DNA of 38,132 bases, from assembly GCA_002731375.1 (NCBI GenBank), contig PCBT01000012.1, forward strand, positions 113,203-151,334, written 5' to 3'. Positions 7,518-9,338 of this stretch are shown here, one piece after another. Position 1 is the stretch's first letter. Each line of letters starts with the position of its first letter. This DNA is from Rhodospirillaceae bacterium. GTDB taxonomy: Bacteria; Pseudomonadota; Alphaproteobacteria; GCA-2731375. Below the pieces are notes generated by a model. It had not been told where the DNA came from and did no database searches. It saw only the letters and a program-made list of their open reading frames with translations. The translations under genes and the position numbers were made by a program.

Positions 7518-7573
7518 CATCTTTCTTCTGGTGATATTTTCAGCGCCGGATGCGGCATGCGGAGGGCACGTCC

Positions 7574-8518
7574 ATGATCGATCTGTTGCAGGTTTCCCAA
7601 TTGCCGCCTTTTCTGGTGGAGCGCCTGGAGAAAGAATTTACCTTGCATGACTTCGTCGATCCGGCGGATCCAGACAAGCTGCTTGATGAAATCGGACCGC
7701 GCATTCGCGGCATTCTCGCGGGCGGCATGAAGGGCCCGAACGCCAATCTGATCAACTGCCTGGAAAATCTGGAGATCATCTCGTCATTCAGCGTCGGCTA
7801 TGACGCCACCGACGTGGCGGCGGCCCAGGCCCGTGACGTGATCGTGACCCATACGCCGGAGGTACTCACCGGTGATGTCGCCGATCTGGCGATGACATTC
7901 ATCCTGATGGCGCCACGGCGCATCGGCGAGGCGGAGCGCTATCTGCGCAGCGGCAAATGGCTGGGCGGCCGCATGGACCTTGGCACCACGGTGCGGGGCA
8001 AGCGCCTGGGCATTCTGGGCCTGGGCCGCATCGGCAAGGCTGTGGCGCGGCGGGCCGAGGTGTTTGGCCTGCATATCGCCTATCACGACATCAAACCCAT
8101 GGGTGATTTGCTCTATCGCTCCTATCCCAGCCTGCTTGACCTTGCCAATGCCTCCGACATCCTTCTGGTGGCTTGTGAAGGCGGCGAGGCCAACCGGGGC
8201 TTGGTCGACGGGAAAGCGCTGGCGGCCCTGGGGCCGGAAGGTTTTCTGGTCAATGCCGCCCGGGGACCAATCATTGATCAGCCGGCCTTGATCTCGGCTT
8301 TGCGCGATGGCGGCATCGCTGGTGCGGCAATGGACGTGTTCGATGGTGAGCCGGAAGTCCCGGCGGAGTTGATGGCCATGGAGAATGTGGTTCTAACGCC
8401 GCATATCGCCAGCTCGACCCACGAGACGCGCCGCGCCATGGCCGATCTGGTCTATGACAACATCCGCGCGCACTTTGATGGCAAGCCGGTTCTTACCCCC
8501 GTGCCGCCGCAGATCTAG
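7574..8518 (+). CDS. D-isomer-specific 2-hydroxyacid dehydrogenase (first of two)
   Basis: An NAD(P)-dependent enzyme that interconverts a 2-ketoacid and its D-2-hydroxyacid, perhaps of the glyoxylate/hydroxypyruvate reductase group. The dinucleotide-binding motif is LGILGLGRIGKAVARRA. The catalytic Arg is in NAARGPIIDQPAL, the Glu in DGEPEVP, and the His in LTPHIASST. Its 314 aa is normal. The start at 7574 is set by GGAGGG seven bases upstream; the longer frame from 7550 has no such site. It is followed after 4 bases by the hairpin array at 8523-8647. A second, clearly diverged member of the family lies at 9467-10408. Confidence 0.93.
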   Translation: MIDLLQVSQLPPFLVERLEKEFTLHDFVDPADPDKLLDEIGPRIRGILAGGMKGPNANLINCLENLEIISSFSVGYDATDVAAAQARDVIVTHTPEVLTGDVADLAMTFILMAPRRIGEAERYLRSGKWLGGRMDLGTTVRGKRLGILGLGRIGKAVARRAEVFGLHIAYHDIKPMGDLLYRSYPSLLDLANASDILLVACEGGEANRGLVDGKALAALGPEGFLVNAARGPIIDQPALISALRDGGIAGAAMDVFDGEPEVPAELMAMENVVLTPHIASSTHETRRAMADLVYDNIRAHFDGKPVLTPVPPQI

Positions 8519-8522
8519 ACTC

Positions 8523-8541
8523 TTTCCGTTTGAAACGGAAA
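8523..8541. repeat. Short palindrome just after the dehydrogenase stop
   Basis: TTTCCGTTT and AAACGGAAA form a perfect 9-bp inverted repeat around one base, beginning four bases after the stop codon. As RNA it would be an 8-bp stem with a 3-base loop. It has no following T-tract, so it could be a weak terminator or a 3'-end stabiliser. Confidence 0.6.
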
Positions 8542-8548
8542 CGCCAAT

Positions 8549-8615
8549 CCGCCCGCCCCCCTCCCGTCCACCCACGGAATTATTATCAATGGGTGGACGG
8601 GAGGGGGGCGGGCGG
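8549..8615. repeat. Perfect 26-bp GC-rich inverted repeat, 15-base loop
   Basis: Arms 8549-8574 and 8590-8615 are exact reverse complements over 26 bases. The left arm is almost all C with a few T, G and A; the right arm mirrors it. The 15-base centre is AT-rich (CGGAATTATTATCAA). It sits in the 130-bp gap between two convergent genes and would form a very stable RNA hairpin on either strand. No U-tract follows on either side, so it is not a standard intrinsic terminator, although a terminator, transcript-end stabiliser or a palindromic mobile repeat are all possible. Confidence 0.9.
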
Positions 8616-8618
8616 TCC

Positions 8619-8647
8619 AGGGATCCGACACAAGTCGGAAAGACCCT
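8619..8647. repeat. Third hairpin of the convergent gap
   Basis: TCCGAC (8624-8629) and GTCGGA (8634-8639) pair around ACAA. The outer AGGG (8619-8622) and CCCT (8644-8647) can extend the stem with small bulges. Read on the minus strand it lies immediately after the stop of the methyltransferase-like gene, so it may serve as the end signal of that transcript. Confidence 0.5.
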
Positions 8648-8648
8648 A

Positions 8649-9338
8649 TTATAGAAGATCGAAGCGGGTGTTGTGCAGCACCAGGTTTCGCCTAACCAGG
8701 TAGTTTCCCGATAAATGCTTGCGCAGATAGCGCACGGTGTTGTGACGGCCATCGACCACCATGGTAAAACCGGGTCCGAAACGATCCTGTAAATACATGG
8801 CGTCGAAGCAGATCTTTCGTTTTGGCTGCAACGCCGGTCCGTCCACATAGAGGAAATCCGGCGTGCCCTCGGGCAGCTCTTCGTAGCGATAACCTAAATC
8901 CTGGCCCCGGTCTTCTTCCACTGCTGGTACGTAACGAATTTCGCAATAAGGCGCCAGATGGGCCGGGACCGAGGCGCGGGTGACATCGGCCCATTCCGCC
9001 ATGCCGTCGAAACTGATAATGCGCCCGGCTTTTTCCAGATCATCCCCGGCCGCCCGGGCGTTGTCATGCAGGGCCTGGGCGAAGATCACCGTGGAGCAGC
9101 CACTGCCCAACTCCATGATCAGGCGTGGCTTGAGTTGCCGTATCAAGGAATAGAGGTACCACAGATCGCCGCCCTGGGGAGCCAGGGCGCCCGCCGGGCG
9201 CGCATCGATAAAGTCCAGATAGCCCAGGCGGCGCAGACGCCTCTTGCCATGTGCATTCGCCATGGTACGGGCCAGCCCCAATAGAGGGCGGGCCATTATC
9301 CAGGCCAGATTGCGCCAAAGGGGGGGTGAAGAGCTCAA
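8649..9338 (-). CDS. Class I SAM-methyltransferase-fold protein (paralogue A)
   Basis: Not recognised as a named enzyme. The fold is suggested by motif I (LIMELGSGCSTVIFAQAL), the acidic strand ISFDGMAEW, DFLYVDGPAL as the fourth-strand region, and GFTMVVDGRHNTVRYLRK near the end. It is clearly homologous to the product of 14798-15457: shared GYL...DARPA, GSGCST(V/I)IFAQAL, VDGPAL/LDGPAL and a C-terminal R/K-rich segment ending in DLL. The start is uncertain. TTG 9338 keeps an N-terminal stretch comparable with the paralogue but has no ribosome site; ATG 9296 gives a shorter protein. A run of seven C lies in the 5' codons if the longer form is real. The substrate may be a glycan or lipid-linked sugar given the neighbourhood, but that is inference. 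Confidence 0.65.
   Translation of the reverse strand: MSSSPPLWRNLAWIMARPLLGLARTMANAHGKRRLRRLGYLDFIDARPAGALAPQGGDLWYLYSLIRQLKPRLIMELGSGCSTVIFAQALHDNARAAGDDLEKAGRIISFDGMAEWADVTRASVPAHLAPYCEIRYVPAVEEDRGQDLGYRYEELPEGTPDFLYVDGPALQPKRKICFDAMYLQDRFGPGFTMVVDGRHNTVRYLRKHLSGNYLVRRNLVLHNTRFDLL

Follow-up and report, generated by a model that had tools for sequence, protein, structure and literature searches.

Br-REP1 of Bradyrhizobium is, in the accessible parts of its description (PMC5082802), the repeat closest in architecture to the element analysed here, a palindromic unit between two convergent genes in a 38,132-nucleotide stretch of Rhodospirillaceae DNA (contig PCBT01000012.1; "the window" denotes this whole stretch). 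Br-REP1 likewise has three palindromes and a setting between convergent genes, and its central palindrome and flanks vary independently between species. It differs in its central stem consensus (CCGGAATCTCGAGATTCCGG, against the GGGTGGCCGGG core here), and neither duplication of a TA target nor a related transposon is reported for it in the same parts of that description. CIR elements of Caulobacter and Brucella (Chen & Shapiro 2003, as reviewed in PMC2229807) are also alphaproteobacterial and intergenic, ~110 bp long, and combine 5'-TA termini with long inverted repeats, but they are built from a pair of arms and a linker and carry a conserved GANTC, whereas our element has one dominant central hairpin. 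The miniature inverted-repeat transposable elements (MITEs) RUP and Correia/NEMIS are short and TA-terminated with terminal inverted repeats, and mobilization of RUP by IS630-Spn1 has been proposed (PMC2229807); they have other sequences and occur in other bacteria, and it is the inner core that is conserved here while the ends vary. REP/BIME repeats are intergenic palindromes biased towards convergent or unidirectional gene ends, with termini that can supply TAG stops, but REPs measure 20–40 bp, carry a GTAG or CGTC tag and associate with RAYT (PMC3733652), features that the tests made here did not bear out for the present element. Template switching between inverted repeats has arm homogenization and spacer inversion as known mutational outcomes (PMC8604942, PMC8794818), described there for yeast coding DNA and RNA hairpins; here it would act on a bacterial mobile repeat.

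By the features tested, our element is not a REP, a CIR or an intrinsic terminator. It is very probably a non-autonomous, MITE-like palindrome that inserts at TA and belongs to a family distributed across Alphaproteobacteria. Judged from sequence, it works like a TA-inserting MITE, with a putative link to a transposase drawn from end similarity. Such behaviour is already known; the novelty lies in a conserved inner hairpin with variable ends, and no described family with the core GGGTGGCCGGG / CCCGGCCACCC was found in Rfam or the openly accessible literature.

Structure of the element

The window copy occupies 8516–8648 (133 bp with both TAs), that is, a body of 129 bases (8518–8646) between two TA dinucleotides. 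At its centre, GC-rich arms at 8549–8574 (+ strand, CCGCCCGCCCCCCTCCCGTCCACCCA, matching the family-wide core motif) and 8590–8615 (+ strand, the exact complement) pair at 26/26 nt (100%) across a 15-nt loop (8575–8589, + strand, CGGAATTATTATCAA), whose loop family is found both ways round relative to the ends. The perfect 26-bp arms and 15-nt loop described in the initial annotation are confirmed, and no other short-spaced inverted repeat of the window is perfect over so great a length. The annotation's view that perfect arms this long are not expected by chance also holds: in windows of matching composition generated by a first-order Markov model, the longest perfect arms reach only 10–12 nt.

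Either side of the core lies a subterminal hairpin, on the left at 8523–8541 (TTTCCGTTT-G-AAACGGAAA, with a perfect 9-bp stem 8523–8531/8533–8541) and on the right at 8624–8639 (TCCGAC-ACAA-GTCGGA, with a 6-bp stem 8624–8629/8634–8639 and AGGG/CCCT outside it; assigned from the sequence and the family alignment). The right-hand one is what the initial annotation gave as a hairpin at 8619–8647. The terminal inverted repeats, TAGACTCTTTCCG at 8516–8528 (+) and, at 8636–8648 (−), CGGAAAGACCCTA as read on the + strand, match at 11/13 positions; the right one was placed from aligned copies. Of the presumed target-site duplication, the left TA (8516–8517) is also the TA of the dehydrogenase stop codon, and the right TA (8647–8648) matches that of the empty site in the sister, GTCTATTT. 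The three hairpins belong to a single transposable unit that these TAs delimit: the side hairpins of the array noted earlier are both present, although as pieces of one element and not as separate structures.

As RNA, the 145-nt intergenic gap is predicted to fold at −91.3 kcal/mol on the + strand (z = −12.2 against dinucleotide shuffles), the energies for the two strands being about −91 and −97 kcal/mol. In the predicted fold the central stem is enclosed by the outer hairpins, which for the most part pair with one another as terminal inverted repeats. Neither strand has a terminator-like site followed by a U-tract (0 sites), as the initial annotation had remarked, so that by this feature the element is not an intrinsic (Rho-independent) terminator. 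A search of Rfam gave no hit reaching the gathering cut-off; sub-threshold hits were mostly eukaryotic microRNA precursors, a likeness driven by the long GC stem.

Empty and filled sites

In a sister species (G004), the orthologous genes (dehydrogenase 95% and methyltransferase 92% identical to those of the window) also face each other, but their stop codons are 2 bp apart and the element is absent. Aligning the two sites gives CAGATC-TA-(element)-TA-TTATAGAAGATC in the window against CAGATCTGAGTC-TA-TTTCAACAGATC in the sister, with the right TA in register. Absence from one sister genome with the same gene pair is what a mobile insertion predicts; it answers in part the initial annotation's refuting condition of absence from sister strains.

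Two further loci give clean pairs. At one, G000 is filled (GTGCTT-TA-(element)-TA-AGAACACCCGAC) and G004 empty (GTGCTC-TA-AAAATACCCGAC); at the other, G004 is filled (AAGACTT-TA-(element)-TA-TTGCCTGG) and G000 empty (AGAGATT-TA-AAGCGCCG). Both loci have one TA when empty and two, flanking the element, when filled. Insertion thus takes place at TA and duplicates it, and has done so in both lineages. Comparison of filled and empty sites shows that the element is mobile.

A dispersed family with a conserved core and variable ends

The 4.5-Mb draft genome containing the window holds at least about nine copies, per-genome numbers being lower bounds (14 candidates scored per genome). Further copies in this genome were recovered by BLAST with the intergenic gap as the query. 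The core pattern CCACCCA-N-TGGGTGG occurred at 4 places only, all in the family, with 0 for the reversed control. Several copies sit at contig ends, as expected since repeats break assemblies. A "small palindromic mobile repeat", one of the options named in the initial annotation, gains support from the number of copies, from the empty sites and from duplication of the TA. An assembly artefact, which the annotation offered as a refutation, is unlikely because related elements recur in many independent assemblies.

Matches extend to all 10 of 10 same-genus genomes, to other genera of the family and to three genomes from other families. With one genome scanned per species, the strict core CCCGGCCACCCA-N11-18-TGGGTGGCCGGG gave at least 118 stretches, and the matches listed (80 titles) were all from records titled as Alphaproteobacteria. 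Sphingomonadales, Kiloniellales, Minwuia, Acetobacteraceae and Kordiimonadales, among others, are represented in those listed matches, with Hephaestia caeni, Sphingomonas koreensis and Tistlia consotensis as carriers. A looser core pattern was found in 9/289 genomes sampled from the class (at most 20 matches per genome; reversed control 0).

Full copies in the genus read TA, terminal inverted repeat and subterminal hairpin, core arm, loop (usually 14–16 nt), then the mirrored order and TA, with a median length of 128 bp including both TAs (34 copies). The family core is GCCCGCTCCCCC(A/T)CCCGGCCACCCA-loop-TGGGTGGCCGGG(T/A)GGGGGAGCGGGC, and its consensus over 85 copies is CCCGCTCCCCCTCCCGGCCACCCA. 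End types vary (TAGAGTCTTTCCG, TAGACCATTTTCGA, TAGAGCATTTTCAA and others); the window copy has the first (TAGACTCTTTCCG / TAGGGTCTTTCCG). TA-bounded terminal inverted repeats matching at 9/13 or better are present in 40% of copies, against 2% of the control. Outside the genus, 36/97 copies and 29/82 controls reach an end match of at least 10/12, and 20/97 and 2/82, respectively, at least 11/12, a noisy analysis that suggests end types for these copies too. It is unusual that the inner hairpin is conserved class-wide while the transposon-like ends vary.

Six copies (L031, L109, L113, L114, L125 and L143) have a loop of 25–26 nt and not ~15, the extra bases flanking one side of the usual loop. 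In copies from Hephaestia and Sphingomonas koreensis (L160:2976, L163:3235 and L168:3967), a second palindrome, …CCCCGCAAAGTA-TACTTTGCGGGG…, splits one core arm, a repeat-within-repeat insertion.

Candidate transposases

A duplicated TA around terminal inverted repeats is characteristic of IS630/Tc1-mariner transposases. For a MITE of this type, the TA duplication is found at two loci (the window site being ambiguous by 6 bp) and the terminal inverted repeats are present, at 11/13 in the window copy and at 9/13 or better in 40% of copies, without being clear in the remainder. The genus-mate genome G008 holds a TA-bounded IS630-family element of 1,052 bp (L293:58-1109, contig C42) with ends TAGAGCATTTCCGAC and TAGAGCGTTTCCGAC and the end pattern TAGAGC(A/G)TTTCCGAC, as well as a second with the end TAGAGCGTGTCG. 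The palindromic element L137 of this genome ends in TAGAGCGTTTC, sharing 11 identical bases with the resident IS630 element. This end similarity points to mobilization in trans, probably by an IS630-type transposase. The genome that contains the window yielded no IS630 element with such ends. The transposase reading of L293 is split across two frames, possibly a programmed frameshift.

Arm identity and loop inversion

Across 85 copies, deviations from the consensus that are symmetric in both arms number 92, against 15.9 ± 4.4 expected when left and right arms are taken from different copies, counts that are inflated by shared ancestry of subfamilies and drawn from draft assemblies; 116 deviations affect a single arm. 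Both arms of the window copy carry a change peculiar to it (GTCCACCCA for GGCCACCCA), and both lack one base. One orthologous pair (L002 in G000 and L102 in G004) differs by an exact inversion of the loop, ATGAGTATGGTCCCG against CGGGACCATACTCAT. Overall, loops lie in the two orientations, relative to the ends, at 17:13, close to 1:1. At a tRNA-linked orthologous site, the right arm in G000 now complements the left over 35 bp, and the right flank is different in G009 and G004. The core occupies the same spot beside a tRNA-like gene in three species (L009, L045 and L109), an orthologous series with differing arm lengths.

Symmetric arm changes and loop inversion together argue for arm-to-arm correction, in which template switching or arm recombination would keep the arms identical and flip the loop. 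Template switching during replication fits as the explanation of arm perfection, and selection on pairing could contribute. A rival to this step alone, that perfect arms reflect selection on base pairing and not a mutational mechanism, seems to us doubtful. Compensatory selection would also yield symmetric deviations, but leaves unexplained both the exact inversion at L002/L102 and, at L009, identity that reaches into flanking, non-core bases; imperfect arms are moreover tolerated, just 34/85 copies being perfect over 24 nt. The "recent origin or selection" that the initial annotation read from the perfect arms is consequently not the best account. A stem that looks designed may be the product of two ordinary processes, TA transposition and arm-to-arm template switching, and orthologous palindromes offer a natural series in which to follow both.

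Placement relative to genes

In the window, a D-2-hydroxyacid dehydrogenase gene (7550–8518, +; PF02826/PF00389) faces a methyltransferase-like gene (8649–9338, −; slightly below the PF13578 cut-off) whose stop codon adjoins the element, so the convergent pair first reported stands. Among the 80 copies with both neighbours called, 53 lie between convergent genes (66%), 24 between tandem and 3 between divergent genes (4%), based on a home-made gene caller and on copies that share ancestry; other adjacent gene pairs in the same loci are convergent in 21/181 cases. A second TA-ended family of the same genus, starting TAGAGCAATTTTCA… and without the GC core, is convergent in 16/40 copies (40%) and divergent in 8 (20%), a weaker skew (Fisher p = 0.01). 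That the concentration exceeds that of a comparable repeat family is unusual, and suggests that, depending on transcription, a strong hairpin is either badly tolerated or of use.

A stop codon falls exactly on the target TA at 29/43 element ends reached by open frames of at least 100 codons, as with the dehydrogenase TAG (8516–8518). Insertion into TAA or TAG is harmless because the element's first base is G or A. Surviving insertions lie mainly directly after genes, often in the TA of a stop codon that is restored by the first base of the element, and most of all where two genes converge, a distribution that target choice or purging could each produce.

Where two 3' ends converge, a hairpin this strong could terminate or protect the transcripts from both sides, a role proposed for REPs and Br-REP1. 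A bidirectional transcript-end role, another option of the initial annotation, is plausible and compatible with the convergent placement. More tentatively, and with more doubt than confidence, the GC-rich core may be a module that functions across the class, ending transcripts in both directions or protecting RNA although it has no U-tract, carried as cargo between exchangeable TA-inserting ends, set between convergent genes and kept paired by template switching. If the hairpin does end transcripts both ways, it would be a mobile terminator reshaping gene ends throughout Alphaproteobacteria.

Weighing the explanations

We favour a mobile element of ~120–140 bp with TA at both ends, short terminal inverted repeats, subterminal hairpins and a conserved GC-rich core, which inserts at TA with duplication, as seen at two sites, and is probably mobilized in trans by transposases of the IS630 (Tc1/mariner-like) type. 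Several observations weigh against this account. The left join of the window element is blurred, with 6 extra bases in the sister; clear terminal inverted repeats are seen in only ~40% of copies; and core-only copies exist (for example, L009, L044 and L047). A conserved core with strongly variable ends is the opposite of what a simple one-transposase MITE predicts, and IS630 elements with matching ends number only two, both in G008. The loop inversion comes from one orthologous pair of draft assemblies, in which palindromes are hard to assemble, and the home-made gene calls and shared ancestry bear on the context counts.

A host-encoded bidirectional terminator or mRNA 3'-end protector, kept in place by selection and not primarily mobile, would account for the convergent excess and scarcity between divergent genes, for the strong folds on both strands and for a core better conserved than the ends. 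We nonetheless consider it improbable: no U-tract was found, the element is missing at the orthologous site with stops 2 bp apart, the repeat is dispersed with TA duplication, and the neighbouring gene is present at only one of the 12 orthologous dehydrogenase loci examined in relatives (L066, G004). Spread as a REP/BIME-type palindrome by a Y1 (RAYT) transposase is highly improbable. The element is indeed palindromic and intergenic with a preference for gene ends, REPs show the same convergent or unidirectional bias, with GTAG-REP termini that often supply TAG stops (PMC3733652), and Y1 transposase genes are present in 7/7 genus genomes searched. But GTAG and CGTC tags at the hairpin foot are rare (6/85 and 9/85 copies), none of the 12 Y1 loci fetched has the family core (one, L307, has an unrelated-looking hairpin), the carrier genome G042 gave no Y1 hit, and REPs do not feature a duplicated TA together with terminal inverted repeats; a REP/RAYT origin was rejected.

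CIR membership through GANTC was also rejected. The motif occurs in 42% of the 85 copies, at 0.54 per element, against 0.57 in mononucleotide shuffles and 0.10 in flanks. Within elements it thus has five times the flank frequency, clustered near the subterminal hairpins, and does not exceed base composition.

The second TA-ended palindromic family, all outside the window, is abundant, with the TAGAGCAATTTTCA start, an …GCGCTCTA end and several short hairpins. It was found in G000, G002, G004, G006 and G010 (for example, L273–L280, L289–L292 and L333–L372), and many of its copies also begin on a gene's TAG stop.
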